From assembly GCA_029851415.1 (NCBI GenBank), contig CM056742.1, positions 81,520,748 to 81,584,747 of the forward strand: a stretch of 64,000 nucleotides of DNA. Direction: 5' to 3'. Origin of the DNA: Eretmocerus hayati (Eukaryota; Arthropoda; Insecta; Hymenoptera; Aphelinidae). The position numbers and the translations under genes are program-made. The notes below the pieces were generated by a model. That model was not told the DNA's origin and did no database searches. It saw only the letters and a list, made by a program, of their open reading frames with translations. Below are positions 3,585 through 57,475 of this stretch, piece by piece. Within the stretch, counting starts at the first letter, position 1. Each line of letters starts with the position of its first letter.

Positions 3585-4419
3585 TCACTGTAATTCGCCT
3601 GCTTCGAGGCGCCTTACTTCCCTCTCTTTCTCCTCTTTGTGGGTCATCACCAGCTTGATGTATCCGGTGAGTCTATCCCATGTCTCCTGGTTGCGGAGTA
3701 AGTACGGGACGAGATTCTCAGGTGTTAGTTGAGCACCCAGCCATTCATCCAGCTCGGCGCGCTCTCTCCGGGTGTCGCTGCACTTGAACAGGGCATGTTC
3801 GGCGTCATCCCATTCATCCCCGCATGACTGACATGCTGGGGTCCTCCTCTTCTTGAACCTGGTTAGATAGGAACCGAAGCAACCATGATCGCTCAGTGCC
3901 TGCGTCGTCCAGTAGTCCATCTCTCCGTGGGTGCGTTCCGCCCACTTGGCTACGTCACGGATCAGCCGGTGCGTCCATCTGCCGTTCGCAAATGGCGAAT
4001 CCCACTCAGTTTGCCAATGCTCAAGGGTGGTTTCCTTCTCGTTGTCGCGGATAATCTCCTTCATCGTCGGGGTGAGTACTCGTTCGGCTCCGATCACTTT
4101 CTGGCGGTCCCAGATCCTCACTCGCTCCGCGACGAGCAAGTGGATGGGCGGTGTACTCGCCAATACGTAAGCCGCATCTCCTGACACGGTGCGGTAGGCA
4201 CGGATACTTCTCAGGGCCGCTCTCCGGTGGACAGGCCCCATCTTCTTCTCGATGATGGTCTTCTCTACTCTCTTTCCCCACACGGGTGCACCGTAGAGCA
4301 TGATAGAGGTGCTGACGGTGTTGAGAAGTGCGCGCCTCTTTTCCTTGGGTCCTCCGATATTCGGCATCAGCCGTTGAAGCGCCGCACCAACCCTGCTCGC
4401 TTTTTGAGCGGCCTCCTTA

Positions 4420-4450
<31 letters not shown>

Positions 4451-4490
4451 CTCTCTCTCTCTCTGCATCTCTCTCTTCCTCGACCATCTT
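3585..4490 (-). pseudogene. LINE reverse transcriptase, C-terminal fragment with CCHC zinc knuckle
   Basis: About 280 residues of open frame match the region after the RT thumb in R1/Jockey-type ORF2 proteins. Visible are MLYGAPVWG (the LYGAEVW-type motif), then RRAALRSIRAYRTVS, and near the C terminus CQSCGDEWDDAEHALFKC, the CxxC...H...C finger that follows the RT in these LINEs. ORF2 proteins nick the target, prime on it and copy their own RNA. The endonuclease and the RT catalytic core are absent. The first 35 or so residues (RERE-rich) come from the GA microsatellite and are not part of the protein. The remaining frame is uninterrupted, so the copy is not very old. Family is firm, clade (R1 versus LOA) is not. 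Confidence 0.75.
4420..4478. repeat. (CT)n microsatellite at the truncated LINE 5' edge
   Basis: Two CT runs are separated by CTCTGCATCTCT units. It lies exactly where LINE homology stops, so it is either a pre-existing target tract or an expansion at the junction. Confidence 0.9.
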
Positions 4491-10537: not shown

Positions 10538-10711
10538 ACACCGGCTCCGAGTGAGAGTGAACTATCGCGAATCGGTACTCTGTGAATTCGTGTCCGCGCG
10601 AGTTCGAACCTGCAACCGGCAAGATCGTGAGTCATACATCGGCAGTGGTTTCGAGACGGATCTCTACCGCGTGGTGCATGTGGTTTCTCTTTCGTGCGAG
10701 TTAGGTACGAA

Positions 10712-13700
10712 ATGGCAGGAGAAATATCTGCGAGGAACATCACCAAATTCAACGGGCAAAATTTCCAGTGTTGGAAATTCCAGATCCAATCAGCGCTGCT
10801 GGCAAACGATCTATTAAGAATCGTCACAGGGACAAGCACGAGGCCAGACAATGTCCCTGGCGCTGAGCCACAAGCTCCCCTTGCGGCATGGGAGAAGGAA
10901 AACGCCAAAGCCATGTTTCTGCTATCATCTTCAATCGAACCGGAGCAGATGCAGTCACTCTTAGTATGTACCACAGCCAAACAAATGTGGGATCGGCTTT
11001 TGTCGATTCATCAGCTACACTCAAATACGAACAAGCTACTGCTGAGCGAGCGGTACTACGAGTATAGGATGGATCCAGCCGACTCTGTGGTGCAACACAT
11101 CGCGAAAGTGCAGAACATGGCAGCACAGCTAATCGATCTAGGTGAAAACTTGGCTGATACTATGATAGTGGCGAAAATCCTGGCGTCACTACCGCCAAAG
11201 TACCGCCATGTTCGGTCCCACTGGAGTAGCATGGACCCAACTCGGCAGACCGTCGAGTACTTGCAGCAAAAATTGATCGAGGAAGAAGCTCTTTTAAATG
11301 CTGAGAACGAGGAGGTAATCGCTCTCGCGGCAACGATAAAGAAAACAACGGTCAGCGATAAGAATGAAAAAGGCGGCAAACCGAAACAAAATGGAAGACG
11401 AGGCAAGAAACAACGTAAGTCAGTACATCCGAATCTCAAGTGCTATATTTGCGACGAGAAGCATTACGCTCGAGATTGCCCTCAGCGCAAGAGAAGCGAC
11501 GATTCAAAATCGGGGGGAGGGACCGCCGGTAGCAACAATGGCGGAGACTGCGCGCTCACAGTCACGTGTGAGGCAAAGTCGGAGCATCGCGAGCAAGGCG
11601 ATCCGCAGGCAAGTGGCGATTACTGGTACCCCCCCGAAGGCCAGATAAAGAAACTACTGAGCGTAAACCAGAAGCTGGCTTGGTTCAGCGACAGTGCCGC
11701 ATCTGCGCACATGAGCCCCCACAGAGAGTGGTTCATCGAGTATCGTCCGAGGAGGGATGGTAGCACTGTCGTGCTCGGTGATGGCAGCGAAACTCCGGTA
11801 GCCGGCGAGGGCACCGTAGCAGTTGACAGGTTGGTGAACGGCGAGTGGGTGGCGGCGCGCATCAAGAACGTGCTGCACGTGCCTGCTCTCAACAAAAACC
11901 TGTACTCTGTTGGTCAGGGTACGGCCAATGGAATCGGCCTGTGGTTCAAGGGTCGATTTGTGTTTTTTCTGCGTGATTCAGATGTGATCGCAGTAGGAGT
12001 GAAGCAGAGCAACGCGATCTATCGCTTGTTCTGGCAGCAGTCATGCGCTGTTCAACACGAAGCCAATGCTGTCACTGCCGATCTGAAAACCTGGCATGAG
12101 CGGCTGGGACATCTACACGTAGCCGCGTTGAAACACATCACCTCGAACAATCTGGTAAGTGGCGTGTCTGTCTCGGGAGCAGACGAATTTTTTTGTGAAG
12201 GATGCCAGCTGGGCAAATCACACAGACAGCCATTCAACAAAGATGTAGCGAGGAAAACGCTACCAGGCGAGATGGTGCACAGTGACGTGTGTGGACCCAT
12301 GCAAGAGCCGTCTCTGAGAGGAGCTCGGTATTATGTTCTTTTCAAGGATGACGCCACAGGATACCGGCACGTTTACTTTATCAAGCACAAATCGGATGTG
12401 CTCGAAAAGTTCAAGCTCTTCGAAAAAGAGTCGAAGAACCTCAGTGGGAGGACAATAAAATTCTTCAGATGCGACAACGGAGGAGAATACACCAGCGATG
12501 ATTTCAAGGCCTATCTGCAGTCATTAGGTATCGTGCTGGAGTACACTGCTCCTTACACTCCGGAGCAGAATGGCAAAGCAGAAAGAGAAAACAGAACAAT
12601 CATAGAGTGTGCACGCACTCTATTACAGGCCAAAGAACTCCCCGCTTATTTGTGGGCGGAAGCAGTGAACACAGCAGTCTATTTGTTGAATAGAATCTCC
12701 AGCCCCTCCACCGATAGAAGCAAAACGTCGTATGAATTGTGGACGAAGAGGAAGCCGGATCTGAGTCATGTCAGAACTTTTGGCGCCGAGGCATTCCAGC
12801 ATGTACCAAAACAGCTGACAAGAAAGCTCGATGCAAAAGCAACCAAGGTGATCCTGGTTGGATATGAGGGCGAGTCCTCCAACTACAGGCTATTCAATCA
12901 AGATACAAGGAAGGTAACGGTATCTAGAAATGTGACCTTCAACGAAAAAACTGGCGATGCAAAATCGAGCACTGACCGCTCGAATGAGTTCGACCTGACT
13001 CTCCCAGCCGCTGCGAGAAACGACGAGCACCAGGGTATATTGGATCACCCACACGACCCTGGAATCGTCGTAGAGCAGGCGGACCTTGATGTTCGTGCGA
13101 ATGATGGTGCGAGAGGCGAAAGAGCCGAATCCCCTCCACCAGCACGACAGCTCAGGAACAGAGCTCTACTGAGACGCCCCGCCAGGTATGCTCTAAATTA
13201 TGCGGTTGTCAATGTACCCACAACTCGCAAAGATGCCCTGAGTGGCCCCCATGCAGAGCAGTGGGAAAAGGCCATCAAGAAGGAAATTGAGGCACACGAG
13301 GTCAACCAAACTTGGAAACTTGTGCCTAGAACACCAGACATGAGAACAATAGACTCCAAGTGGGTGTTCAAAATACTTGATCCTGAGAGTGAAGTTCCAG
13401 TTTTCAAGGCCCGCTTGTGTGCAAGAGGCTTCATGCAACAAGAGGGCATAGACTATACAGAGACTTTTTCACCAGTCGTCAGGTACGACTCCCTTCGTCT
13501 GCTGCTGGCTCACATCGCTCAAGAAGACCTGGAGATGCTGACATTTGACGTCTGCACTGCGTTCCTGTACGGGGACCTTGATGAGCAAATCTACATGGAA
13601 GTGCCAGAAGGCGTTAGTGAAGTGAATAGTGAAGAGTTTGTATGTCTGCTGTTGAAATCTCTGTATGGGTTGAAACAAGCACCCAGGTGTTGGAATAAGA

Positions 13701-14776
13701 GAGTTAAAAGATTCCTGAAGAAATTCAATTTCAAAGAAAGTAGTGGTGATAAATGTATTTTCATCGGTGAGGTTGAAAATTGTATTGTCTACTTGGCTTT
13801 GTTTGTTGACGATGGACTATTGGCATGCAAAAATAAGAAAATCCTAAACTTAATTCTTGCTGAAATGAGAAAAGAGTTTTCCATCACTACTGGGGATGCC
13901 AGTTATTTTGTTGGCATGCAGATCAGTCGCAATCGTACTAACAAAGCCTTGTTTATCAGTCAGAATGTGTATGTGAAAATGATTCTTGAGAAATTTGGCA
14001 TGCTCGGTGCTAAAAGTGTATGTGTCCCAGCTGACCCAAATATAAATCTACATTCTGTTAACCCTGAGTGTGAATCTGAATGTGCAGTTCCTTATAGAGA
14101 ACTTGTTGGTTCCCTTATGTTTTTGGCAATGGTCTCCAGACCTGATATTGCTTATTCGGTTAGCATCCTAAGCAGATTCATGAACAACTTTGATCAAAAC
14201 CATTGGCGTGCAGCCAAGCGAGTGCTTGCTTACTTGATTAACACTGTAGATTATGGAATTTGCTACACTGGTATGGATGAATGTGAGTTGATTGGTTATT
14301 CTGATGCTGATTTTGCAAATGATTTAGATACCAGAAGGTCTACTACTGGATATGTATTCTGTATAAATGGTGGTGCAGTTACATGGTCCTCTCAGCGACA
14401 AAAGCTTGTAGTACTCAGTACTACTGAAGCAGAATATGTTGCTGCTTCAACTGCCAGCCAAGAGGTAAAATGGTTGCTGAAACTAGTGAGTGATATAAAG
14501 TGTCAAGACATTACAGGTGTAACATTGTGTGTGGATAACCAAAGTGCCATCAAGCTTGTTAAGAATTCTGAGTTCCATAAAAGAACCAAGCATATTGACA
14601 CTCGCTACCATTTTATTAGAGATATGTATGAGTCTGGTGAGCTGAAACTGAAGTATGTGCCATCTGCTATTCAACTGGCAGATTTGTTTACCAAAGCTCT
14701 TCCTAGAGACAAATTCATGAGCATGAGAGAGAACCTTGGTATGATTTCTATGGGTGAGATCTTGAGTAAATTCTAG
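10712..14776 (+). CDS. copia Gag-Pol polyprotein (capsid, protease, integrase, RT, RNase H)
   Basis: 1,354 residues from the first ATG in frame (MAGEISARN); an upstream GTG at 10694 extends the frame by six codons but is not a likely start. Order: a Gag core of UBN2 type; a zinc knuckle CYICDEKHYARDC (from residue 244); protease WFSDSAAS (Asp327); a pre-integrase HHCC finger (WHERLGHL...CEGCQLGK); integrase with D525, D588 and E624 (DD35E spacing); RT with FVDDG (residues 1031-1035); and RNase H with YSDADF (Asp1198), SSTTEAEY and HIDTRYHFIR. The protein would be cleaved by its own protease and would assemble into virus-like particles that copy and insert the element. Oddities: the knuckle is CX2CX3HX4C, one residue short of the canonical CX2CX4HX4C, and the protease has DSAAS where DSGAS is usual. 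Codon composition shifts from GC-rich to AT-rich after about 13600. Otherwise the length and all catalytic residues are as expected. Confidence 0.97.
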   Translation: MAGEISARNITKFNGQNFQCWKFQIQSALLANDLLRIVTGTSTRPDNVPGAEPQAPLAAWEKENAKAMFLLSSSIEPEQMQSLLVCTTAKQMWDRLLSIHQLHSNTNKLLLSERYYEYRMDPADSVVQHIAKVQNMAAQLIDLGENLADTMIVAKILASLPPKYRHVRSHWSSMDPTRQTVEYLQQKLIEEEALLNAENEEVIALAATIKKTTVSDKNEKGGKPKQNGRRGKKQRKSVHPNLKCYICDEKHYARDCPQRKRSDDSKSGGGTAGSNNGGDCALTVTCEAKSEHREQGDPQASGDYWYPPEGQIKKLLSVNQKLAWFSDSAASAHMSPHREWFIEYRPRRDGSTVVLGDGSETPVAGEGTVAVDRLVNGEWVAARIKNVLHVPALNKNLYSVGQGTANGIGLWFKGRFVFFLRDSDVIAVGVKQSNAIYRLFWQQSCAVQHEANAVTADLKTWHERLGHLHVAALKHITSNNLVSGVSVSGADEFFCEGCQLGKSHRQPFNKDVARKTLPGEMVHSDVCGPMQEPSLRGARYYVLFKDDATGYRHVYFIKHKSDVLEKFKLFEKESKNLSGRTIKFFRCDNGGEYTSDDFKAYLQSLGIVLEYTAPYTPEQNGKAERENRTIIECARTLLQAKELPAYLWAEAVNTAVYLLNRISSPSTDRSKTSYELWTKRKPDLSHVRTFGAEAFQHVPKQLTRKLDAKATKVILVGYEGESSNYRLFNQDTRKVTVSRNVTFNEKTGDAKSSTDRSNEFDLTLPAAARNDEHQGILDHPHDPGIVVEQADLDVRANDGARGERAESPPPARQLRNRALLRRPARYALNYAVVNVPTTRKDALSGPHAEQWEKAIKKEIEAHEVNQTWKLVPRTPDMRTIDSKWVFKILDPESEVPVFKARLCARGFMQQEGIDYTETFSPVVRYDSLRLLLAHIAQEDLEMLTFDVCTAFLYGDLDEQIYMEVPEGVSEVNSEEFVCLLLKSLYGLKQAPRCWNKRVKRFLKKFNFKESSGDKCIFIGEVENCIVYLALFVDDGLLACKNKKILNLILAEMRKEFSITTGDASYFVGMQISRNRTNKALFISQNVYVKMILEKFGMLGAKSVCVPADPNINLHSVNPECESECAVPYRELVGSLMFLAMVSRPDIAYSVSILSRFMNNFDQNHWRAAKRVLAYLINTVDYGICYTGMDECELIGYSDADFANDLDTRRSTTGYVFCINGGAVTWSSQRQKLVVLSTTEAEYVAASTASQEVKWLLKLVSDIKCQDITGVTLCVDNQSAIKLVKNSEFHKRTKHIDTRYHFIRDMYESGELKLKYVPSAIQLADLFTKALPRDKFMSMRENLGMISMGEILSKF

Positions 14777-19532: not shown

Positions 19533-21890
19533 TTATGCAATAACGATGGGTATGTCATCAAAAGGATTCTTCTTCATTTGCATATTTGGTTGAGGATTAT
19601 CAATTAATTGCACTCCAACTCCAGACAAGGGATCAACAGCTGGAGGTTGAGTGAATCCAACAATACCAGGTGCTCCTTCATTATTAGTATCTCCGGATAT
19701 TTGTAAGAACATTCGGGGGTTGTGAATCATCCTCGAGCCGTAGTTAACATTCTGTGAATGTTGTGGGGCAGCAATTTGGCTGTCTGGAATAACTATAATT
19801 TGAGCGGGGCTATTTACTTGAGGGTGCATTTTCGTCTTTCTAGGTTGTTTCACAGCTTTACTTCGATCAACCAATGGTTTGCCTGCCTTGCTTATTCTGT
19901 TAGTGGTCTTAGACTCAGCAAGTAATTTAGCAGCCATGAGATTTTGTCTGAACATCTCATGATTCAAAAGACTTTCTTGATTCTTTGGTCCGTTAGTCAC
20001 TATCTCGCCAGGAAGAGATTGACTTAGGGAGTCAGGTACGGTAGGGGTCAACCCAGTACTGTATGCAGTGGCCAACACAGGCCCATTCACTGTGGAGTTA
20101 CTAACTGCAAAGTCTGTCGCAGTCTTTTGCGCCTCATAAGCTAAAGAGTTAGCAACTGGAAATTGCTTTGATTGGTCAAAACCAGGCACAACTTCACCAT
20201 TGCTGTATCCTGGTACCTGTATAAACATTGGGGAATCGTGGATGGTTTGCGAACCATATCTCATGACCTGTCAGATTTGCGGGCCTGCAATTTGGTTGTT
20301 TGGAATGACTACCACTTGAGCAAGACTGTTCTCTTGAGGATCAACTTTCTTCTTTCTTGGTCGTTTAATTTTGTTACTTTGATCCGCTAATGGCTTGTCA
20401 GTATTGCGTTTTCTACTGGTCTTTGCTTGAGCAAGTAATTTAGCAGCTATCAGATTTTGCCTATAGTTTTCATCATTTACAAAAAATGCCCTGTTCTTTG
20501 GCCGATTAGTAACAATCTCACCAGAAGGAGATTGATTCAGGGAGTCAGGTACCGTAGTTGCCAACCCACTGCTAGATGTGGTAGCCACCGCAGGGCTATT
20601 AGTGGTCGAGGAACTTGGTACAGACTCTGCGGCAGTCCCTTGGGCCTCATTGACTGGCGCAGACAACTCATTGGGAGTTGAATTTACTCCAAGTAGATAG
20701 CCCAAATTGTCTGTAAATCCACTCAACTCTTGGGGGCTTGATGGCTGAGAAGTGGTGGTTTGAGGCTGACCATTAGATATCAAGTGCTCCTGAAAAAAAA
20801 ATTCAGTAATTAAAATACAGAAGAATATTTTCCCACAAATCAATTGCATATTTGTTACACACAATCTGATTAAGAGCGGCTTTGAGCTGTGCAAATGCAT
20901 TCATCAATGCTTCACTCTGTGGCATGCTAGGGAGGCAGTTCTCTTGAGATGTTGATGGTGCCTCGGGGTTCTGTATTTCATGTATGAGTCGAGTACATCT
21001 TGCAGTTTCTGCACTTTCATCTGCAGGGAAATTGATCCATGATATGAGAAACTGAATGACTGCTATGACTAAAGAAGTTTATGGCAACTATTGTATAATA
21101 CACATGAATAGGAAATATTCATTCTAGCTGAACACACCCAAAGAACTGTTAGGGCTACTCTCTACTGCATTCAGGTTGACGTAGTCTGTGTCCTTGAAAA
21201 TATCTCTATTAAAAGGGACCAGACCACATTTTCGAAAAGCATTCTTTGCGGTATCTGGGCTTTTGGTTGCAATAGTCCAAGCCTTTCCAAACACTCTAGC
21301 TATATCTTTCATTTGAATACCAGTTTTTATCTCTCGCTGCTCCTCAATCAAAACTTTAGTGTACGCATCACTCAGAGACTTCATGAAGCCTACCTCTAGA
21401 GGCTGCATTTTGTGTGTACAGTGTGGTGGCAGGCAAAGGAGGAATACTCCATGCTCATTTGCATAATCAATCACCTCAAGATTCTCCACATGGGTAGCGT
21501 GACCATCAAAAATCAGTGCCACTGGATTTTCTCTAGAAGCTTTTGAGAATTTGACAAATTCCTTAAACCAGCGGAAGAATGAGGGAAGATCAACCCAGCC
21601 ACTTCCGTTCCATTCAGCCCATGCACCTGCTGGGAGGCCTTGCAGATATTCCGGCTTCTCTTTCTTGAGAGGATGAATCAGCATCGGTGGCATGTATCTT
21701 CCATCAGCTGAAATACATAGTTCAACCGTAACCAGTTTTCCTCTCTCTAGGTCAGTCAATCCTCCAACCTATCGTCTGCCTTTTAAAGCCACCACCATGG
21801 GTGTTTGTTTTGGATTGACAGTGACATTTGATTCATCGACATTGTAAATATTCTCCTCCTTAATTAAGTACTTAATTATTATACGTTCAA
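19533..21890 (-). pseudogene. Pogo/jerky-type DDE transposase gene, spliced, with two in-frame stops
   Basis: Minus strand. The 5' part (about 21890-21127) is a DDE_1 domain: IYNVDES supplies the first Asp, and ALIFDGHATH followed by FLLCLPPHCTHKMQPLE the second Asp and the PxxTSxxLQPLD-like block. A TAG at 21769-21771 sits in frame just before VGGLTDLERG. Candidate GT-AG introns follow: about 21040-21137 (acceptor TTCCCTGCAG) and 20790-20860 (acceptor after a T-run). The C-terminal exon is low-complexity and contains two tandem copies of one segment (SGEIVTNRPKNR...AAKLLAQAKT and GEIVTNGPKNQ...AAKLLAESKT). A TGA at 20271-20273 separates the copies; the matching codon in the second copy is TCA (Ser), so a single substitution is the likely cause. 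Truncated before the helix-turn-helix (CENP-B-like) N terminus. Members bind DNA and transpose at TA, or are domesticated nuclear proteins. I cannot tell which this was. Confidence 0.75.
19700..20700 (-). repeat. Tandem duplication inside the DDE gene C-terminal exon
   Basis: Two diverged copies, about 540 bp apart, encode the same order of motifs: SLSQS/SLNQS, GEIVTN, NLxAAKLLA, KPL, KxPRK, VIPxxQIA, YGS, MF. They keep the same frame, apart from the TGA between them. Divergence is compatible with selection having acted on the protein before it decayed. Confidence 0.7.
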
Positions 21891-32901: not shown

Positions 32902-34939
32902 CTACTATCGGTTTAAAAATGATTGACACCTAGAGAATTTCTGCTATCCTGGCTCCAAAAAAAATCGTTAATTTTTTTAACTGGGATAACGTCGAAGCAC
33001 ATCTAGTCGCGGCCATGATAAAAATTTTTTGGAGTCGATCGGATGACAACTGCGGCTGTAGCTGTTATCAGAATGTAAAAAAACACGGGTATAAGGCCAA
33101 TTTCAGAGGTAGCTCGACTTTGGGATGCGACAGCTCTGCCAAAAAAAATTCTGGGGCGCTGCAAAAAATGTATAGGTGATAGATATTTAGTTCCCCAATA
33201 GCGTCCAACAACAATCAGCCAAAAAAATTAATAACTTTTGGAGATAATCCAGTTATTGTCATCTCGGGATCTATTGAGGTTGAAGACTTGATTCAAAAAC
33301 AGAAAAATCATGAAAAAATTCTGGATGTCAAATACAAAAATGCAATATGAGATTTTAAATAAACAAACGCGTGGCAAGGTCGCAAAGTTGAAAAAAATTA
33401 AAGTTTGCGCCTATTGTGAGGCTTTTATTGTCTTTTACAGCCGGGGCCCGTAAAATCGGCGATGGGCAAGACTCCCTGACCGCGGACCATAAAAGTCGTA
33501 AAGTTGCGGTCTCGGAGTCAATTAGGGTACCATCAGTCTGCTTCGGCTGCAATAATGAAGCTGAATTTTCAACAAAGAGAGCAATAAAACTATTTCGAAC
33601 GCGATTTGGGCCTTGCGTTACAAATATCGCCGATTCATCGATGAAGCATTGTCAATGATGAGTCGAACAGTATATCAATGACGCGTGAGTGCAGGTGTCT
33701 TTCTCTCTCTCAGAGTTTCGCGATATCTGCATGTAAGTATTCTTTGGCGGATCCTTTAAATGATTGATAATATACAATCAATCCTTTATCCACATGATTC
33801 CGATGGTGAAAGAGTTGGCTATCATCCGTATTGATAAGATGATAATCAACAGTTGAATGATTTTACTATTATCTCGTTCGATCGTTGATTGATAATTATT
33901 GATTGTGCAAAACGCGCAATAACACGACATACATTCATTTCTATGATGCTATAAATGATCGGTCGAACAAGATGATGGTAAAATCATTCAACTGTTGATT
34001 GTCATCTTATCAATACGGATGATATCCAACTGTTTCACATCGGAATCATGTGGATAAAGTATTGATTGTATATTATCAATCATTTAAAGGATCCGCCAAA
34101 GAATACTTACATGCAGATATCGCGAAGTTCTGAGAGAGAGAAAGACACCTGCACACACGCGTCATTGATATACTGTTCGACTCATCATTGACAATGCTTC
34201 ATCGATGAATCGGCGATATTTGTAACGCAAGGCCCAAATCGCGTTCGAAATAGTTTTATTGCTCTCTTTGTTGAAAATGCAGCTTCATTATTGCAGCCGA
34301 AGCAGACTGATGGTACCCTAATTGACTCCGAGACCGCAACTTTACGACTTTTATGGTCCGCGGTCGGGTAGTCTCGCCCATCGACGATTTTACGGGCCCC
34401 GGCTGTAAAAGACAATAAAAGCCTCACAATAGGCGCAAACTTTAAATTTTTTCAACTTTGCGACCTTGCCACGCGTTTGTTTATTCAAAATCTCATATTG
34501 CATTTTTGTAATTGACATCCAGAATTTTTTCATGATTTTTCTGTTTTTGAATCAAGTCTTCAACCTCAATAGATCCCGAGATAACAATAACTGGATTATC
34601 TCCAAAAGTTATTAATTTTTTTGGCTGATTGTTGTTGGACGCTATTGGGGAATCAAATATCTATCACCTACATTTTTTGCAGCGCCCCAGAATTTTTTTT
34701 GGCAGAGCTGTCGCATCCCAAAGTCGAGCTACCTCTGAAATTGGCCTTATACCCGCGTTTTTTTACATTCTGATAACAGCTACAGCCGCAGTTGTCATCC
34801 GATCGACTTCAAAAAAATTTTATCATGGCTGCGACTAGATGTGCTTCGACGTTATCCCAGTTAAAAAAATTAGCCATTTTTTTTGGAGCCAGGATAGCAG
34901 AAATTCTCTAGGTGTCAATCATTTTTAAACCGATAGTAG
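32902..34939. repeat. 2.04-kb palindrome
   Basis: Left end CTACTATCGGTTTAAAAATG; right end is its complement, ending CGATAGTAG at 34939. Arms are about 980 bp with a spacer of about 75 bases (33884-33959). Mirrored 80-codon ORFs at 33416-33658 and 34185-34427 are products of the symmetry. No transposase is encoded. Confidence 0.9.
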
Positions 34940-45992: not shown

Positions 45993-47369
45993 TACCTTTG
46001 ACGACTAAAAAGTTTGGCAAGATCAAAGGTGCTAAAGTATCTCCTTCTCTCAAATCAAACGCTAAGCCAGTTTATCTGAAAGCACGCCCTCTTCCATTCA
46101 AATTGATTCCTTTGGTCGACACGAAATTGATAGACTAGAGAATCTAGAGGTGTTGGATAAAATCGATTCTCCTGAATGGGGAACGCCTATAGTTCCGGTA
46201 CTTAAAAGCGACGGTACAGTTCGAATTTGCGGAGACGATAGCGTCACTGTTAATCCCCAATTAAACGTTACAGAACATCCTCTTCCAATCATGAATGAAC
46301 TTTTCACAGGTTTAGCAAGGTGTCGCATTTTTGGAAAAATCGATTGTCAATGAGCTTTTTCACAACTCGAAGTAGACGACGCAACTTCGTTATTTCATAC
46401 AATAAATACACATCGAGGCCTTTATCGATGCAAAAGTCTGATGTATGGGGTGGCATCTGCGCCAGCCGAATGGCATAAAGAAATAGACAGAATATCACGC
46501 AAACTCCGAGGAGTAAAAGCATTATTAGATGATATACGCATTGCAGCTAAAATAATACGAGAATTCATGCAACTTGTAGAAGCAGTTTTCAAAATCTTGA
46601 ATGACCACAATTTACAATCAATGGAGGGAAATGTGAATTGTCGAAAGATAGAATTCCGTATTGTGGATACGTTATTGATAAAAATGGCATACGCAAAGAT
46701 GGAGCCAAATATGAGGCAATTTTGAAAATGCCACGTCCTACAGATAGAATTACAACCAAAGCTTTTATAGGCATGATCAATTACTATAATCGATTCATAA
46801 AGAATGCATCTACAATGTTACAGCCATTATATGGATTACTCAAACATGACACCGATTTTGTTTGGGGTCCAAGGCAAGAAAGAGCCTGGATTGAAGCAAA
46901 AAAAGCTTTTACAAGTGATCAGTGCTTAGCTTTCTACGATCCAATTTTACCTCTGGTTTTAGCTACAGATGCCAGCCCCTACGGTGTGGGAGCTGTACTT
47001 CCACATCAATACCCAGACGGTAGTGAACGTGCCATCATTTGCGTGTCACAAGCCTTGACTAAAGTGCGGGTCAAATATAGCCAAATAGATAAAGGGGCTT
47101 AAGCAATAATTTCCGCGATTAAACGCTTACACCTATACCTTTACGGTAACCAGTTCATCTTATACACTGATCATCGTTCACTCGCTCAAATCTCTTCCAA
47201 GGATAAAGCTCTCCCGATTTACAGTGCAATGAGGATGCAACATTACGCAATCTTCTTACGTTGTTCCAATTATGAAATCAAATACAAACGTTCAGAGCAA
47301 AATGCTAACGCGGATTGTTTGTCTCGTATACCTTCTCCGCTAGAGAAGGACGGAATGAATCTAGACGTC
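45993..47369 (+). pseudogene. gypsy reverse transcriptase and RNase H domains, broken
   Basis: Begins FGKIKGAKVSPSLK and KPVYLKARPLPF, the usual lead-in to a gypsy RT. Then come DSPEWGTPIVPVLKSDG, RICGD, a catalytic-box relative at 46528-46533 (LLDDI rather than YLDDI or FVDDI), YYNRFIKN in the thumb/tether, and RNase H blocks ATDASPYGVGAVL, YTDHRSLA and NANADCLSRIP. Breaks: TGA at 46351-46353, a frameshift near 46640, TAA at 47100-47102. RT and RNase H would copy the element RNA inside particles. The domain order and motif set match K02A2.6-like gypsy pol proteins common in invertebrates. The frame is open up to the satellite element at 47370. Confidence 0.85.
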
Positions 47370-47399
47370 CCCTGCTGCAAAAGATCGATTGGGATGGAT

Positions 47400-47985
47400 T
47401 GAAAACCAATCGAATCCTATCGGGATGAATACATTTCAATCGGTTCTATCATTCAACCGGCGAGAGCAGTATTGGAATTCAATGCAGATCAATCGAACAA
47501 AGACCCAATCAAGCTGAATCCTGAATTGTAGAATTGGGATCACAACTGCCAATAGGATTCTATACTGTTGATGAGGATTGATGTAAGCGAATATAATCCA
47601 ATACTAGTATTCAGCATAGGATCGGACACGGAAGGATGGATGGAAGATCTTTGCTGGTTCAATATGTTTTAATGAACCGATTCAGTATTGGAATCAATCT
47701 AATTGAATAATGGATCTCGTCTCCCACTGCTCTATCGAGATCAATGCTTCAGAAAGTGATTCGATTCGCGAAACGATACTAATTGTCTATCCTAACCAAT
47801 CCCAAATGACAGGATTGGATTTCACCTTTTGAACACTATTATTTCAACATTCCTCAATCGAACTGAATAATTCTCTGCAGTACTGGGTGTATAATAACCT
47901 TGCTCTTTCCTATCCGTTTCAATCATGAATGGACAGATTCGAGTCGAATTATGCCTGGATCAATTCCAATCATCCCCCTATCACC
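47400..47985. repeat. Degenerate satellite leader
   Basis: Contains many scattered AATCGA, CAGTATTGGAAT and GGATTGA words of the arrays but no regular period. It is the transition from terminal repeat to array A. Confidence 0.6.
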
Positions 47986-47989
47986 TATT

Positions 47990-50660
47990 GCGTGATTGAC
48001 AAATCGAGCTGAGTACTACAAAATCGGATTGAAATCGTGGATGCATGGTTATTCTATCCTTCCCAATACTCATAATCAGTATTGAACTCCGCTAGATTTC
48101 ATATATTTCAATCGAATCCAATACTGCTCAGCAGGATTAGAATGGCCTGGAGATGAGTTTTGCTATCGGTCTGAATCCTGCCGAGCAGCATTGAATTAAC
48201 TGAGTCAATCGATTCCAATGATAACCCAATTACTCACTGCGTGATTGACCAATCGAGCTGAATACTACAAGATCGGATTGAAATCGTGGATGCATGGTTA
48301 TTCTATCCTTCCCAATACTCACAATCAGTATTGAACTTCGCTGGATTTCATATATTTCAATCGAATCCAATACTGCTCAGCAGGATTGGGATGGCCTGAA
48401 GTCGAGTTTTGCTATCGGTCTGAATCCTGCCAAGCAGCATTGAATTGACTGAGTCAATCGATTCCAATGATAACCCAATTACTCACTGCGTGATTGACCA
48501 ATCGAGCTAAATACTACAAAATCGAATTGGAATCGTGGATGCATGGTTATTCTATCCTTCCCAATACTCACAATCAGTATTGAACTCCGCTAGATTTCAT
48601 ATATTTCAATCGAATTCAATACTGCTCAGCAGGATTGGAACGATCTCGAGATGAGTTTTGCTATCGGTCTGAATTCTGCCAAGCAGCATTGAATTGACTG
48701 AGTCAATCGATTCCAATGATAACCCAATTACTCACTGCGTGATTGACCAATCGAGCTGAATACTACAAAATCGGATTGAAATCGTGGATGCATGGTTATT
48801 CTATCCTTCCCAATACTCATAATCAGTATTCAACTCCGCTAGATTTCATATATTTCAATCGAATCGAATACTGGTCAGCAGGATTGGTACGGCCTGCAAA
48901 TGAGTCTCGCTATCGGTCTGAATCCTGCCGGGCAGCTTTGAGTGGACTTTGTCAATCGATTTCAATGATGACTCGATCACTCACTGCGTGATTGACCAAT
49001 CGAGCTGAATACTACAAAATCGGATTGGAATCGTGGATGCATGGTTATTCTATCCTTCCCAATACCTACAATCAGTATTGAACTGCGCTGGATTTCATAT
49101 ATTTCAATCGAATTCAATACTGCTCAGCAGGATTGGAACGGTCTCGAGATCAGTTTTGCTATCGATCTGAATCATGCCAGGCAGCATTGAGTGGACTGCG
49201 TCAATCGATTTCAATGATGACCCAATCACTCACTGCGTGATTGACCAATGGAGCTGAATACTAAAAAATCGGATTGAAATCGTAGATGCATGGTTATTCT
49301 ATCCTTCCCAATACTCACAATCAGTATTAAACTCCGCTGGATTTCACATATTTCAATCGAATTCAATACTGCTCAGCAGGATTGGAACGATCTCGAGATG
49401 AGTTTTGCTATCGGTCTGAATCCTGCCGAGCAGCATTGAATTACTGAGTCAATCGATTCCAATGATGACCCAATCACTCTTTGCGTCATTGATCAATCGA
49501 GATGAATACTACAGAATCCAATTGAAATCGTGGGTGCATGGTTATTCTATTTCTCTCAATACTCACAATCAGTATTGAACTCCTCTAGATTTCATACATC
49601 TCAATCGAATTCAATACTGCTGAGCAGGATTGGAACGGCCTGAAGATGAGTCTTGCTTTCGGTCTGAATCCTGCCAGGCAGCAACGAGTCGACTGCGTCA
49701 ATCGATTTCAATGATGACCCAATTACTCACTGCGTGATTGACCAATCGAGCTGAATACTACAAAATCGGATTGAAATCGTGGATGCATGGTTATTCTATC
49801 CTTCCCAATACTCACAATCAGTATTGAACTTCGCTGGATTTCATGTATTTCAGTCGAATCCAATACTGCTCAGCAGGATTGGAATGGCCTGAAGATGAGT
49901 TTTGCTATCGGTCTGAATCCTGCCAAGCAGCATTGAATTGACTGAGTCAATCGATTCCAATGATCACCCAATTACTTACTGCGTGATTGACCAATCGAGC
50001 TGAATACTACAAAATTGGATTGATATCGTGGATGCATGGTTATTCTATCCTTCCCAATACTCACAATCAGTATTGAACTCCGCTAGATTTCATATATTTC
50101 AATCGAATTCAATACTGCTCAGCAGGATTGGAACGGTCTCGAGATGAGTTTTGCTATCGGTCTGAATCCTGCCAGGCAGCATTGAGTCGACTGCGTCAAT
50201 CGATTTCAATGATGACCCAATCACTCTTTGCGTCATTGATCAATCGAGATGAATACTACAGAATCCAGTTGAAATGGTGGGTGCATGGTTATTCTATTTC
50301 TCTCAATACTCACAATCAGTATTGAACTCCTCTAGATTTCATACATCTCAATCGAATTCAATACTGCTGAGCAGGATTGGTACGCTCTGAGGATGAGTTT
50401 CGCTATCGGTCTGAATCCTGCCGGGCGGCATTGAGTCGACTGCATCAATCTATTCCAATGATGACCCAATCACTCTTTGCGTCATTGACTAATATCGAGA
50501 TGAATACTACAGAATCGAATGGAAATCGTGGGTACATGGTTATTTTATCCTTCTCAATACTCACAATCAGTATTGAACTCCTCTAGGTTTCATATATATC
50601 AATCGAATTCAATACTGCTGGGCAGAATTGGAACAGCCTGAAGATGAGTTTTGCTATTGG
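47990..50660 (+). repeat. Satellite array A, 249-bp period
   Basis: The landmark TGCGTGATTGACCAATCGAG (or TTGCGTCATTGA variant) recurs at 47990, 48239, 48488, 48737, 48986, 49235, 49483, 49732, 49981, 50230 and 50479. The step is 249 bp except one of 248. Two subtypes alternate irregularly; the CGTCATTGATCAATCGAG type is at 49483, 50230 and 50479. Each unit holds several CAATACTN-CAGTATTG type dyads 53-55 bp apart. Confidence 0.96.
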
Positions 50661-53600
50661 TCAGGTGAACGGGTTATAAGGTCTGCAATGCTGAGAATCA
50701 GTATTGAAATCGATTGAGGCGGATTGAGATCTCGATGTTTGCAATACTGGAAGACGGTACTGGAATCGATCGGGCAGATAGGATTTCAAGTCCTCAATAC
50801 TAACAATCATCATTCAGGTATATTGACGTAGATAGAATATACGGTATCCAATGTTAGAGGTCAGTATTTGGATCTATTGAGGCAGATAGGACTTCCCATT
50901 CCCAATCTGATACACAGCATTCGAATTAATTCAAGTAGATATGATATAAGGTCTGCAATGCTGAACATCAGTATTGAGATCGATCGAAGCGTAATGCGCT
51001 CCCGATATTCCCAATCCTGAAATACAGAACTGGAATCGATTAGGGCAGATAGGATTCCAAGTCCTCAATACTGATATTCCGCATTCAATTCGATTCAGGT
51101 AAATATGATATGAGGTCTGCAATGCTGAAAGTCGGGATTGAGATCGATTCAAGCGGATTGAGATCTCAGTGTTTCCAATACTTGAAAATGGTATTGGAAT
51201 GAGTTGGAGCAGATAGGATCTCAATTCTGCAATACTGATTTTCAACATTAAAATCGATACAAGTAGATAGGATATAATGAGGTCACTTATGCTTACATTT
51301 AGTATTGAGATCGATTGAAGTGGACTGAGATAGCAATCTGCCCAATACTGAGAGACAGTACTCAAATCGATTCAGGTTATTGGGATATAAGGGCTCCAAT
51401 ACTTACAGTCAGTATTGAGATCGATTAAATTGGGTTAAGATCTCGATATTCCCAATACTGGAAAACAGTACTCAAATCGATTGGGACAGCTAGGATTTCA
51501 AGTCCTTAATACTGATATTTAGCATTCAATTCGATTCAGGTAAAAATCATATAAGGTCTGCAATGCTGAACATCAGTATTGAGATCGATTGGAGCGTACT
51601 GAGAACCCGATGTTTCCAATACTGAAATACAGTACTGGAATCGACTGGGGCAGATAGGATGGCAAGTCCCGGATACTGATATCTAGCACTGATATCCAGC
51701 ATTCATTCCGATTCAGGTAGATAGGATATGAGGTTTCTGATGCTTACTTTCAGTATTCAGATCGATTGAAGTGGATTGAGATCCCGATATTCCCAATACT
51801 GAAATACAGTACTGGAATCGATTGGGGCAGATAGGATCTCAAGTCCTCAATACTGATATCCAGCATTTAAATCGATTCAAGTAGACAGGATATAAGATCT
51901 GCAATGCTGAAAATCAGTATTGAGATCGATTGAAGCGGATTGAGAACCCGATGTTTCCACTACTGAAATACAGTACTGAAATCGATTCGGGCAGGTAGGA
52001 TTTTAAGTCCTCAATACTGATATCCAGCATTCAAATCGATTCAAGTAGATAGGATATAAGATCTGCAATGCTGAAAATCAGTATTGAGATCGATTCAAGC
52101 GGATTGAGAACCCGATGTTTCCAATACTGAAATACAGTACTGAAATCGATTGGGGCAGATAGGATTTCGAGTCCTCAATACTGATATCTAGCATTCAATC
52201 CGATTCAGGTAAATATCATATGAGGTCTGCAATGTTGAAAATCAGTATTGAAATCGATTGAAGCGGATTGAGAACCCGATGTTTCCAATACTGAAAGACA
52301 GTTCTGGAATCGATTGGGGCAGTTAGGATTTCAAGTCCTCAATACTGAAATCCAGCATCCAAATCGATTCAAGTAGATAGGATATAAGGTTTCTAATGCT
52401 TACTTCCAGTATTGAGATCGATTGAAGTGGATTGAGATAGCGATCTACCCAATACTGAGAGACAGTACTCAAATCGATTCAGGTTATTAGAATATAAAGG
52501 CTAGAATACTCACAGTCAGTATTGAGATCGATTGAAGTGGGTTGAGATCTCGAAGTTCCCAATACTCGAAAACAGTACTGGATTCGACTGGGCAGATAGG
52601 ATTTCAAGTCCCCAATACTGATATTTAGCATTCAATTCGATTCAGGTAAAAATCATATAAGGTCTGCAATGCTGAACATCAGTATTGAGATCGATTGGGG
52701 CGTACTGAGAACCCGATGTTTCCAATACTGAATTACAGTACTGGAATCGACTGGGGCAGATAGGATGGCAAGTCCTGAATACTGATATCTAGCACTGATA
52801 TCCAGCATTCATTCCGATTCAGGTAGATAGGATATGAGGTTTCTGATGCTTACTTTCAGTATTCAGATCGATTGAAGTGGATTGAGATCCCGATATTCTC
52901 AATACTGAAATACAGTACTGAAATCGATTCGGGCAGGTAGGATTTTAAGTCCTCAATACTGATATCCAGCATTCAAATCGATTCAAGTAGATAGGATATA
53001 AGATCTGCAATGCTGTAAATCAGTATTGAGATTGATTCAAGCGGATTGAGAACCCGATGTTTCCAATCCTGAAATACAGTACTGAAATCGATTGGGGCAG
53101 ATAGGATTTCGAGTCCTCAATACTGATATCTAGCATTCAATCCGATTCAGGTAAATATCATATGAGGTCTGCAATGTTGAAAATCAGTATTGAAATCGAT
53201 TGAAGCGGATTGAGAACCCGATGTTTCCAATACTGAAAAACAGTTCTGGAATTGATTGGGGCAGTTAGGATTTCAAGTCCTCAATACTGAAATCCAGCAT
53301 CCAAATCGATTCAAGTAGATAGGATATAAGGTTTCTAATGCTTACTTCCAGTATTGAGATCGATTGAAGTGGATTGAGATAGCGATCTACCCAATACTGA
53401 GAGACAGTACTCAAATCGATTCAGGTTATTAGAATATAAAGGCTAGAATACTCACAGTCAGTATTGAGATCGATTGAAGTGGGTTGAGATCTCGAAGTTC
53501 CCAATACTCGAAAACAGTACTGGATTCGACTGGGCAGATAGGATTTCAAGTCCCCAATACTGATATTTAGCATTCAATTCGATTCAGGTAAAAATCATAT

Positions 53601-54560
53601 AAGGTCTGCAATGCTGAACATCAGTATTGAGATCGATTGGGGCGTACTGAGAACCCGATGTTTCCAATACTGAATTACAGTACTGGAATCGACTGGGGCA
53701 GATAGGATGGCAAGTCCTGAATACTGATATCTAGCACTGATATCCAGCATTCATTCCGATTCAGGTAGATAGGATATGAGGTTTCTGATGCTTACTTTCA
53801 GTATTCAGATCGATTGAAGTGGATTGAGATCCCGATATTCCCAATACTGAAATACAGTACTGAAATCGATTCGGGCAGGTAGGATTTTAAGTCCTCAATA
53901 CTGATATCCAGCATTCAAATCGATTCAAGTAGATAGGATATAAGATCTGCAATGCTGTAAATCAGTATTGAGATTGATTCAAGCGGATTGAGAACCCGAT
54001 GTTTCCAATCCTGAAATACAGTACTGAAATCGATTGGGGCAGATAGGATTTCGAGTCCTCAATACTGATATCTAGCATTCAATCCGATTCAGGTAAATAT
54101 CATATGAGGTCTGCAATGTTGAAAATCAGTATTGAAATCGATTGAAGCGGATTGAGAACCCGATGTTTCCAATACTGAAAAACAGTTCTGGAATCGATTG
54201 GGGCAGTTAGGATTTCAAGTCCTCAATACTGAAATCCAGCATCCAAATCGATTCAAGTAGATAGGATATAAGGTTTCTAATGCTTACTTCCAGTATTGAG
54301 ATCGATTGAAGTGGATTGAGATAGCGATCTACCCAATACTGAGAGACAGTACTCAAATCGATTCAGGTTATTAGAATATAAGGGCTAGAATACTCACAGT
54401 CAGTATCGAGATCGATTGAAGTGGGTTGAGATCTCGAAGTTCCCAATACTCGAAAACAGTACTGGATTCGACTGGGCAGATAGGATTTCAAGTCCCCAAT
54501 ACTGATATTCAGCATTCAAATCGATTCAGGACGATAAATAAACTCGTCAATGCTCATAGT
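50661..54560 (+). repeat. Satellite array B, 164-bp monomer with 942-bp higher-order repeat
   Basis: GAGAACCCGATGTTTCC recurs at 51942, 52106 and 52270 (164-bp step). GGCAAGTCC within GGATGGCAAGTCC occurs at 51661, 52767 and 53709. The second interval is 942 bp and the first is 1,106, exactly one 164-bp monomer longer. Blocks 52.6-53.5 and 53.5-54.5 kb are almost identical, so the higher-order duplication is recent. The monomer is itself three modules with dyads at about 55-bp spacing (52122, 52177, 52230, 52286). Confidence 0.95.
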
Positions 54561-54564
54561 CAGT

Positions 54565-54900
54565 ATTGGAACCGATAGACGTAGTGTGAGTTATTGAACT
54601 TCCCATTCCTGAAAGTTAGTATTGGAATCGATTGAGGCCGATAGAATTCGAGTGGCTGACGCTAGGCGGCGTTTCGGTGACCATCTCAGTTTGCATCCAA
54701 ATATCATGGGATTGCTTTCTCGCAAGCGACGAACCATCTCTCCTGTTCCTATATAAGACTGATGAGTGACAGAACCTCCAAATAGCGTTTAGTTATGTAA
54801 TGCGATGATATGTTAATGCGATCATGATTAAAATAAGTATTGAATTGTATTGAAACCTTACCTGTAATGTGAGTGATGTATATGTGAGACGTTGATTTGT
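54565..54900. other. Non-repetitive interval between satellite arrays
   Basis: About 300 bases with little array homology (for example 54660-54900). It shows a possible TATATAAG at 54749 and no coding domain. It may be leftover unique sequence of the original transposon. Confidence 0.5.
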
Positions 54901-54904
54901 AATA

Positions 54905-55955
54905 ATGACTGAAAGTCAGTATTGAGGTCGATTGAGGCCGATTGAGTTCTCGATGTTCCCAATACTGAAAATCAGTATTGGAATCGATTGAGGCGGATAG
55001 GATTTCGGATATCCAATACTGATTTCCAGCATTCAAATCGATTCAGATGAATAGGATATGAGGTGTCCAATGATTCTATTCAGTATTGAGTTCGATTGAG
55101 GTTCCAATACAGAATAACAGTATTGGAATCGATTGAGGCGGATAGGATTTCGGATATCCAATACTGATTTCCAGCATTCAAATCGATTCAGATGAATAGG
55201 ATATAAGGTGTCCAATGATTCTAGTCAGTATTGAGTTCGATTGAGGTTCCAATGCAGAATAACAGTATTGGAATCGATTGAGGCGGATTGGATTTCGGAT
55301 ATCCAATACTGATTTCCAGCATTCAAATCGATTCAGATGAATAGGATATAAGGTGTCCAATGATTCTAGTCAGTATTGAGTTCGATTGAGGTTCCAATGC
55401 AGAATAACAGTATTGAAATCGATTGAGGCGGATTGGATTTCGGATATCCAATACTGATTTCCAGCATTCAAATCGATTCAGATGAATAGGATATAAGGTG
55501 TCCAATGATTCTAGTCAGTATTGAGTTCGATTGAGGTTCCAATGCAGAATAACAGTATTGGAATCGATTGAGGCGGATAGGATTTCGGATATCCAATACT
55601 GATGTCCAGCATTCAAATCGATTCAGATGAATAGGATATGAGGTGTCCAATGATTCTATTCAGTATTGAGTTCGATTGAGGTTCCAATACAGAATAACAG
55701 TATTGAAATCGATTGAGGCGGATTGGATTTCGGATATCCAATACTGATTTCCAGCATTCAAATCGATTCAGATGAATAGGATATAAGGTGTCCAATGATT
55801 CTAGTCAGTATTGAGTTCGATTGAGGTTCCAATGCAGAATAATAGTATTGGAATCGATTGAGGCGGATAGGATTTCGGATATCCAATACTGATTTCCAGC
55901 ATTCAAATCGATTCAGATGAATAGGATATAAGGTCTCCAATGATTCTAGTCAGTA
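54905..55955 (-). repeat. Satellite array C, 145-bp period, about seven copies
   Basis: Identical landmarks recur every 145 bp (for example 55033, 55178, 55323, 55468, 55613, 55758). A subtype with ATGAGG and CTATTCAG recurs four units apart (near 55055 and 55635), a 580-bp higher-order step. The 60-codon minus-strand ORFs that repeat through it arise because 145 bp shifts the frame and stops at the same place; they are not genes. Confidence 0.96.
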
Positions 55956-56168
55956 TTGAGGTCGATTGGCAATCTCTCTCTCAATGCGTATAGTCGGCAT
56001 TGGTAAAGATTGGTCAACACTGTTTGAATCCCGATCAACATCATTGATCGCGATTGAACTCCAATCTTCTCCAATCCTGAAAATCATGTTTCAAATTCAT
56101 CATAAGTTTCTAGATTCAGATCGATTGAGTGTTTTTCTATCGAATCCAATCGAACTTTTGCAGCAGGG

Positions 56169-57475
56169 TCGTTGCTGCATTCTATATGGATACAATAGAT
56201 ACATTACTTATCAATTCAAATGAATTGTTGTGCGAGTGTGAAAATGATTCAGAGATAATGAATGTCATTACAAAAATACGAGAGGGGAAAACTATGAGTG
56301 CTAAAGATACGCGGAATGTCAACCTTCAAGAATTCAGTCTCGAATTAGCTGTACTTGTTCGCAATCATATGATTGTAATACCAAAAATTCTACGTTCCAT
56401 AGTCTTACAAAGTTCACATGTGGGCCATTTCGGCATAGTCAGAATGAAGAATCTGGCCAGAGGTCATTGCTGGTGGCCGAATATCTCAGATGATATAGAG
56501 TCATTAGTAAAGAGCTGCACAGAACGCCAACTACAAAGAAATGATCCAGCCAAAGTTGATAAACACATATGGGAACCACCTTCAGCTTCTTTCGACCGCA
56601 TTCATTTGGATTTTGCAGGGCCTTATTTGGACAAAAATTTCTTGATCATCGTAGATTCGTTTTCGAAGTGGCCTGAAGTGTACATTGTTCCTAACTTATT
56701 TACCGAAACTACAACTCGTGTTTTCAAAGAAGTTTTTGCGAGATTCGGAATTCCTCAAGAAATGGTCACAGATAATGGCCGTACATTCAAGTCACAGACG
56801 TTCAAAGCTTTTACTGACGTTCACGGCATTTTACACAAATTTACAGCGCCGTTTCACCCGTCGACTAATGGTCAAGCCGAAAGATATGTCCAAACTGTCG
56901 AACAAGCTCTGGCAAAAATTCCCGAGAATTTTGATCTTTACATTGAACTACAGAATATTTTGTTTCAGTGTGGAACGATTCCACACCCACACACAGGGAA
57001 ATCTCCTGCTGACTTAGTATTCAATCACAAACCACGTACCCTGTTAGATGCAATGAGACAATTACCTAAGAATACAGATTCTGTGAACCAGGATAAGTCA
57101 TCTTCAGAGTTCAAATTAGGTGATCGAGTAGCTGCGTGGAATTACTACGGTAATATGAAGTGGTGCTTTGGTAATATTATAGAACGTGAGGGGAAATTAC
57201 ACTACATTGTGAAACTTGATGATGATAGAGAATGGAAGCGACACGTGGATCATTTACGATGAACTGATGCGGAAAAATCTATCGATACAGAATTCGATTA
57301 TGATGTGACTCTAGAAGAGCGAGTTCCTTCTGCTCAAAGTGTACCTGTTCAAAATCAGTCACCGGATTCTATTCCGCGAAAGACAGCCGCGAAATTCAAA
57401 AGATTCTAAACTTGAGGTACAAAATCAGCCTGGTACAAGTGCAAATGTTACGCCGTTGGCTAGACCCCGGTGCGA
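56169..57475 (+). pseudogene. gypsy integrase and C-terminal domain, broken
   Basis: An H...H...C zinc-binding domain (HVGHFGIVRMKNLARGHCWW to SCTERQ), in which the second Cys of the usual CxxC is Arg. The DDE core follows: HLDFAGPY, VTDNGRTF, and HPSTNGQAERYVQ supplying the Glu. A C-terminal chromo-like or beta-barrel segment (FKLGDRVAAWNYYGNMKW...) and HVDHLR come next. The TGA at 57260-57262 follows, where the frame stays open beyond for about 70 codons with a gypsy-like tail. Function in life would be insertion of cDNA into the genome. The frame is open through this whole domain, so the integrase part is better preserved than the RT. Confidence 0.87.

Follow-up and report, generated by a model that had tools for sequence, protein, structure and literature searches.

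A satellite block inserted in a gypsy element

How satellites come to be dispersed across genomes is an old question. A locus of Eretmocerus hayati raises it anew: a block of 8,799 bp, made mostly of satellite repeats, sits in an old gypsy element at positions 47370–56168 of the window, i.e. of the 64,000-nucleotide stretch that we analysed (assembly GCA_029851415.1, contig CM056742.1, forward strand, 81,520,748–81,584,747). Is this block an array that happens to lie there, or is it the very unit that moved?

A number of observations favour the second answer. First, the block has exact ends. An earlier reading made from the sequence alone had proposed 23-base inverted ends with TC on both flanks, and we found both: the ends agree at 22 of 23 bases (14 identical bases, one A/T mismatch, 8 identical bases), TC flanks the element left and right, and in a self-comparison the inverted repeat extends to 47 bp at 83% once gaps are allowed. 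The terminal 14-mer has just two perfect matches in the window. At up to two mismatches there are four matches for 0.41 expected, the two extra ones falling in an unrelated inverted repeat at 33.4–34.4 kb. Second, the gypsy flanks are in frame with each other once the element and one TC are discounted, as had also been claimed. Third, two gypsy paralogs show the uninterrupted site with a single TC: L049 matches the left flank at 98% and the right one at 95% identity, L050 at 95% and 93%, and in both of them the two matches overlap by exactly 2 bp, the one TC. The element is therefore an insertion into gypsy at the DNA level, with the 2-bp target duplication and the exact ends that had been put forward. 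Extra native sequence in intact gypsy relatives had been named as evidence to the contrary, and these paralogs have none at the insertion point. At the protein level, 43 relatives aligned on both sides of the junction, among 120 listed of 250 matches, and exactly 0 extra residues were found in 11 of them, including the three whose alignments reach the junction from either side (P0001, P0015 and P0087). The others differ by -5 to +11 residues, the linker being variable here, and a misaligned piece accounts for a single outlier of -98. The features are given in Table 1.

Table 1. Features of the element and of its gypsy host (window positions).
Feature	Position	Strand	Remarks
Host gypsy pol, RNase H part	46638..47369	+	divided by a stop codon at 47100-47102
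Target-site duplication TC, left copy	47368..47369	.	flank comparison and empty site
Left terminal inverted repeat	47370..47392	+	23 bp, 22/23 against the right one; to 47416 with gaps
Left non-array end module	47393..47958	+	98.6-99.3% identity in 13/20 fetched copies
Tandem array, 249-bp unit	47959..50662	+	10.9 units
Nested tandem array on a ~54-bp unit	about 50663..54528	+	periods 54/110/164/328/437
Mostly unique module	54529..54958	+	core 54640-54920
Tandem array, 145-bp unit	54959..55968	+	7.0 units, 97% matches
Right non-array end module	55969..56145	+	
Right terminal inverted repeat	56146..56168	-	
Target-site duplication TC, right copy	56169..56170	.	flank comparison and empty site
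Host gypsy pol, integrase part	56171..57262	+	H2C2 and rve

A family of paired ends with target duplications

The 23-base end has 515 exact occurrences in the 692-Mb home genome (257 forward, 258 reverse), and its reversed-pattern control has 0. Among the 100 ends listed of these 515, 68 form 34 adjacent plus/minus pairs within 30 kb, where random placement gives a mean of 0.63 pairs and a maximum of 5 in 2000 placements; the remaining 32 are not part of such a pair. In this genome the family numbers a few hundred copies of this kind. The unique module of the element is found in at least 40 genome copies at 99–100% identity (of 412 candidates, 40 were scored). Below 124.4 Mb on C1, 12 of the 14 scored copies of this module lie inside listed pairs, and the other two have an unpaired end about 10 kb away or closer. 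Exact matches to the 23-base end number 0 in public viral-contig and genome-contig collections, as do matches to a monomer word in the viral-contig collection.

Both flanks were read in 23 copies (20 fetched ones, L001/L002, L005/L006 and the window element), and 18 of these have an exact 2-bp duplication (15 of the fetched ones and the three others), for a binomial chance of 5e-18 at 1/16 per site. One copy, L022, has a 3-bp duplication, and four (L013, L018, L024 and L026) have none, L013 being the one fetched copy with left-type sequence on both sides. Other loci thus do carry these ends beside the same modules and with 2-bp duplications, as the sequence-only reading had predicted. The commonest duplicated dinucleotide is TA (6/18), which also directly precedes 153 of the 515 ends; the other 12 duplications are of other dinucleotides. 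TTAA on both sides, the piggyBac hallmark, was seen in 0 of the 23 flank pairs. Both ends read CCCTG in the window element, in B18 and in the 20 fetched copies, these copies having been chosen by that end and hence not being independent. As for alternative ends, CCCTGCTGCAAAAG followed by C or G is present in six places, of which L043, L046 and L048 are family ends, L044 and L047 fall within ORFs that look like those of retroelements, and L045 is a repeat of L044. The same word followed by W and then by a base other than T is present in seven places, one of them within a 25.5-kb pair.

A chance origin is rejected by the number of ends relative to their control, by pairing above random placement and by the binomial value of the duplications. 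An ordinary satellite array, lying between chance inverted repeats or invading by recombination or repair, would account for the tandem repeats that fill most of the length, but it is refuted by the empty sites and the paired ends, as well as by the abundance of the ends and their duplications, and we hold it to be extremely improbable. Helitrons are not known to make a target duplication. A Helitron or Helentron with central tandem repeats would match the arrays, since satellite-like arrays are common in such elements (PMC12628747); it is nevertheless hardly credible for an element with inverted repeats at both ends and a 2-bp target duplication with an empty site.

Arrays carried from site to site

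Tandem arrays cover 84% of the element (TRF), in line with the claim that three of them fill its 8.8 kb. The nested one holds a 942-bp repeat in two copies, which are 98.5–100% identical over most of their length. The arrays are unmirrored: apart from the terminal inverted repeat, the self-comparison yields a few short and weak inverted matches of 64–84 bp. This bears on foldback-type elements (FB, Galileo, Tetris), which have long repeat-filled inverted arms. Tetris does have tandem repeats within a TIR element (PMC4079207), but long inverted arms of tandem repeats are not seen here and the duplications of Tetris are of 8–10 bp instead of 2 bp, which makes a foldback origin very unlikely. A comparison with Rfam gave 10 matches with E no higher than 1, and 0 of them reached the gathering score.

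The 22 copies that were read whole span 4.2 to 18.4 kb and are array for the most part; 14 of them, a near group chosen by eye, show 1.4% divergence in the unique modules. Module numbers vary as had been anticipated, with 2 to 17 units of 249 bp across copies and with 145-bp arrays that, in 11 of 12 near copies, differ in length by whole units. The expected short copies devoid of arrays did not turn up among the 34 pairs listed at up to 30 kb, the shortest of which (4,150 bp) is still 68% tandem repeat (TRF). Units of 145 bp differ at 4.8 of their 145 positions within an element and at 4.3–4.5 between elements, and 21 of 51 units fall in five exact variants, each present in more than one element. 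By these comparisons of units, the arrays mostly predate the spread of the copies, with later gains and losses of units also visible, so that they are carried by transposition and not grown anew at each site. The idea that the satellite grew inside a mobile element and may be moved with it is supported, with this one refinement. Nearest-neighbour counts of monomers were not taken as proof because most monomers lie in other elements and the 145-bp model also matches the 54-bp array.

Which transposase moves the family?

We found no transposase gene in the 22 copies read whole. Transposase_21 (PF02992) has 74 matches in the home genome, 66 of them over the cut-off, and is present in 0 of 14 control genomes. 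Matches inside pairs below 45 kb number 0 in 37 pairs on C1 (from the 100 listed of 515 ends) and 0 in 35 TA pairs (from 100 listed of 153 ends), a set overlapping the former. Larger copies were considered as autonomous and rejected: arrays make up the 18.4-kb copy as well as the interior of each of two 12.0-kb copies. L011 (8,598 bp) was likewise rejected as the autonomous copy. Read by eye, its ORFs of 692 and 582 aa resemble a gag with a zinc knuckle and an endonuclease/reverse transcriptase; they probably belong to a non-LTR retrotransposon that sits inside a copy with family ends.

Since no transposase gene lies inside the examined pairs, the superfamily is assigned from the ends, the target duplication and a relative. 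This relative encodes a 902-aa ORF with DUF4218 and Transposase_21 (27.5 bits for the protein, just below the 28.6 cut-off, and 30.9 in the genome search). Its two copies are 99.7% identical, and the sequence that they share ends at CCCTAGCCAGAATAATCGATTG, beyond which the flanks differ. This CCCTAG end is in register with the family ends (CCCT at positions 1–4, TCGATTG at 16–22); CCCT and the ATCGATTG word are common to both. The in-register match to the right end of the element is 19/30. Of 354 CCCT starts, 2 match as well or better, and one of these was fetched for the common 14-mer. The left end of the relative was not found within 15.5 kb. Another Transposase_21 locus, L042, is unlike the element, with 734-bp inverted repeats that begin with CGCCCGAG and no matching flanks.

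CCC ends and 2-bp direct repeats have been described in TRC elements of Schistosoma, Tribolium (CCCTAG...) and Aedes, and SmTRC1 of Schistosoma also has a tandem-repeat region (DeMarco et al., PMC1636069). The ends and duplications of our family fit these animal CACTA/EnSpm elements, and its superfamily is probably this one. With regard to subterminal repeats, a further trait of CACTA/EnSpm elements, the likeness of the end modules to the arrays has z values of 1.2–5.4 (parts 51–300 and 51–200), and that of the first 50 bp of 0.2–3.7, for controls at -1.8 to 2.2 (60 shuffles each). Could the same mobile satellite element be moved instead by the transposase of another superfamily? ISL2EU or another CMC/PHIS group also makes 2-bp duplications. 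The missing Transposase_21 gene in the examined pairs and the frequency of TA, among the duplications and before the ends, would suit such a transposase, but the duplications are not confined to TA, the ends and repeats match the published animal elements, and the same genome holds a CACTA-type element with the shared words. We thus regard another superfamily as unlikely.

A mobile satellite and its known counterparts

We think it likely, on these grounds, that the family consists of non-autonomous cut-and-paste transposons, most likely CACTA/EnSpm (animal TRC), whose body has turned into satellite DNA. A process of this kind would involve 1) a CACTA transposase supplied in trans, binding the ends and repeated subterminal motifs; 2) excision of the whole block of 4 to more than 18 kb and its insertion at YR-rich dinucleotides (TA/CA/TG); and 3) gain and loss of whole units by the arrays inside the element, by unequal exchange or replication slippage. 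The family would in this way disperse a satellite of ever-changing length. A rather doubtful extension is that the satellite represents multiplied, putative transposase-binding sites: longer arrays might recruit more transposase and be better substrates, and arrays would thereby be seeded across chromosomes. CAATACTG/CAGTATTG words have a density of 10.6 per kb in the repeats of the element and 0.02 outside, and ATCGATT words of 14.0 and 0.40.

Here the satellite block itself is the visible transposed unit, and a dispersed satellite of such kind can be a DNA transposon that has gone unrecognised. With its exact ends, duplicated target sites, empty sites and recent copies that are nearly identical, the family makes the growth, loss and dispersal of arrays measurable copy by copy in one genome.

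Several known systems share parts of this organisation. Animal CACTA/TRC elements have the CCC termini, the 2-bp flanking direct repeats, TIRs of 10–54 bp and, in SmTRC1, a tandem-repeat region, but they are about 4.7–9.2 kb long and contain Transposase_21, as a gene or as what remains of one (PMC1636069), whereas no transposase was found in our copies and arrays are most of the body. Jozin of Chenopodium is a CACTA-like element with a satellite array, present in several copies, and its array is dispersed along chromosomes; it differs in being from a plant and in having a single 171-bp array, 5.5 kb long, in an element of 16.5 kb with coding sequence (PMC8978399), where the E. hayati element has several arrays in one and no transposase found. 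Tetris of Drosophila virilis is likewise non-autonomous and bounded by TIRs, and the number of its internal tandem repeats varies; in its case they are placed in long inverted arms, the duplications are of 8–10 bp and complete copies are few (PMC4079207). Finally, although the Xenopus miDNA4 is a Tc1/mariner MITE and central-repeat Helentrons belong to another superfamily, both are, like the element described here, transposons that carry satellite and serve as its seedbed (PMC12628747, PMC9659126).

Copy number and target sites of the family

The element at window 47370-56168 belongs to a multi-copy family. Its 23-base terminal inverted repeat has 257 forward and 258 reverse matches in the 692-Mb home genome (Eretmocerus hayati), and the reversed-pattern control has 0 in the same 692 Mb. 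Coordinates were listed for 100 of the 515 ends, all on contig C1 up to 124.3 Mb; 68 of these form 34 +/- pairs (a forward and a reverse end bounding a putative copy) within 30 kb, spanning 4,150 to 25,534 bp, against a mean of 0.63 pairs and a maximum of 5 when ends are placed at random. Most of the listed ends (83/100) lie between 80 and 124.3 Mb of the 205-Mb contig and 8/100 in its first 40 Mb, which suggests a mid-chromosome concentration, as far as 100 ends reaching 124.3 Mb describe it.

We read 20 whole pairs, selected for fitting a 10-kb size limit, one 18.4-kb copy piecewise, and the interiors only of two 12.0-kb copies. Exact 2-bp target duplications flank 15 of the 20 fetched copies, the window copy (TC) and two further copies, L001/L002 (TA) and L005/L006 (CA), i.e. 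18 of 23. The duplicated dinucleotides were TA (6), CA/TG (6) and others (6), and TA directly precedes 153 of the 515 ends. L022 has a 3-bp duplication (AAT), and four fetched copies (L013, L018, L024 and L026) have neither a 2-bp nor a 3-bp one. L013, with two left-type ends, is possibly a foldback-like derivative, and the flank letters of L024 are array sequence, so we read it as sitting in another array.

The window copy is an insertion in a gypsy element: its flanks, with TC on the left and right, belong to a K02A2.6-like gypsy pol, the RNase H part on the left side and the integrase part on the right. The sequence-only reading had argued that the two parts are in frame if one TC is discounted. 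At the protein level, 11 of 43 relatives gave 0 extra residues at the junction, among them all three whose alignments reach it. Two gypsy paralogs in the home genome, which match the left flank at 95% and 93% identity, are uninterrupted there, and on both the left and right flank matches overlap by exactly 2 bases, TC; the frame argument is therefore confirmed at the DNA level.

Features of the window and of related loci
Feature	Position	Description
Satellite-filled element	window 47370-56168	8,799 bp; inverted CCCTGCTGCAAAAG termini, 22/23 identical
Array one		unit of 249 bp; self-comparison gives 78.7% identity at this lag
Array two		nested order; peaks 942, 164, 110, 54
Array three		145-bp unit; 97%
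TATA-like word TATATAAG	window 54750-54757	within the otherwise unique module; possible predicted promoter
DNA transposon fragments	window 98-661 and 21124-21759	Pfam matches TNP-like GBD (PF21788) and DDE_1 (PF03184); remnants of other DNA transposons
ORF	window 3585-4520 (-)	looks related to the C-terminal part of the L011 insert
Copia-type element	window 10694-14776	1,360-aa open frame; best protein relative 57% identical
Inverted repeat	window 33380-34460	arms about 1 kb apart, containing CTTTTACAGCCGGGGCCCGTAAAATCG; no relation to the satellite element
L011, interrupted copy	L011:1-8998 (G000:C1:66395306-66404303)	family ends; arrays split by insert with 582- and 692-aa open frames
L013, copy	L013:201-5565	left-type end sequence on each side; target duplication absent
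Transposase_21 locus (L042, L051, L052)	G000:C2:127891000-127899043	734-bp inverted repeats, 99.3% identical, beginning CGCCCGAG

Satellite content and its history

Most of the window copy consists of three tandem arrays (TRF coverage 84%), of which arrays two and three are 68-69% identical across about 1.1 kb. The words CAATACTG/CAGTATTG occur 10.6 times per kb within it vs 0.02 outside, and ATCGATT 14.0 vs 0.40 times; its largest element-only ORF, of 144 aa, reads through array. When the window copy and the 20 fetched ones were compared, the left module matched in all 21, the right in 20, and the unique module in 18, the match in L018 spanning 56% only. TRF coverage is 59-86% in 20 of the 21; it is 20% in L011 because a retrotransposon, by our reading of its frames probably of the non-LTR type, interrupts this copy. 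The 249-bp unit number varies from 2 to 17 per copy, including B18, a whole-read copy beyond these 21. No ORF exceeds 167 aa in the 21 copies, the L011 insert excepted, or 146 aa in the 18.4-kb copy, one end piece of which was in the wrong orientation at that scan.

Fourteen copies, chosen by eye from the module comparison as a near group, differ in the unique modules by a mean of 1.38% (0.56-2.41%), the window copy departing from their majority at 2 of 1,070 positions; the remaining eight lie at a mean distance of 11.5% from this group. By these distances, the family has been mobile recently and has at least one older branch. The 145-bp array predates this spread, since its units differ by 4.8 of 145 positions within elements vs 4.3-4.5 between them, and 21 of 51 units fall into five exact variants common to different elements (the comparison was limited to units whose start word is intact and excluded pairs with more than 40 differences). 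Among 12 near copies the length of this array steps by whole units, 11 falling on two 145-bp ladders (758 and 777 plus multiples); the exception is L009, whose right module aligned only partly. Array change continues after the spread of copies: the 942-bp repeat of array two, with two copies 98.5-100% alike across most of its length, points to a recent duplication in the window copy or its parent.

Mechanism and comparison with known elements

Whole-block insertion with a 2-bp duplication, many copies and array-length change are observed. A CACTA-type transposase acting in trans would mobilise the element, and unequal exchange or slippage would add and remove array units. The end modules resemble the arrays, which suggests that the latter may be multiplied subterminal motifs, possibly binding sites; of the readings compatible with the data this is the boldest.

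DeMarco and colleagues (PMC1636069) report CCC ends and 2-bp direct repeats in elements from Schistosoma, Tribolium and Aedes that are related to CACTA, and our family has both. A genome profile search found 74 matches to the CACTA transposase domain Transposase_21 (PF02992), of which 66 score above the cut-off; many lie in 720-900-aa open frames. One ORF of 902 aa has DUF4218 over its cut-off and Transposase_21 at 27.5 vs a 28.6-bit cut-off; two copies of its element, 99.7% identical across 8.6 kb, diverge exactly at CCCTAGCCAGAATAATCGATTG. This end matches the family ends in register at 19 and 17 of 30 bases, equalled by 2 of 354 control CCCT starts, one of which is not independent; a second end was looked for and not found. 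The CGCCCGAG-ended locus has long inverted repeats and no matching bases in its flanks, so Transposase_21 loci here are not all like the family. Two overlapping sets of pairs among the ends listed, 37 and 35 in number, contained no Transposase_21 match, and we therefore hold the CACTA assignment to be likely, not proven.

In the open-access literature searched, no animal CACTA-type element consisting mostly of satellite was found described. Satellite-bearing transposons as such are already known: Jozin CACTA elements of Chenopodium carry a 5.5-kb array within a 16.5-kb coding element (PMC8978399), Tetris of Drosophila is a satellite-carrying transposon (PMC4079207), and Helentrons and the Xenopus miDNA4 MITE are transposons with satellite (PMC12628747, PMC9659126).
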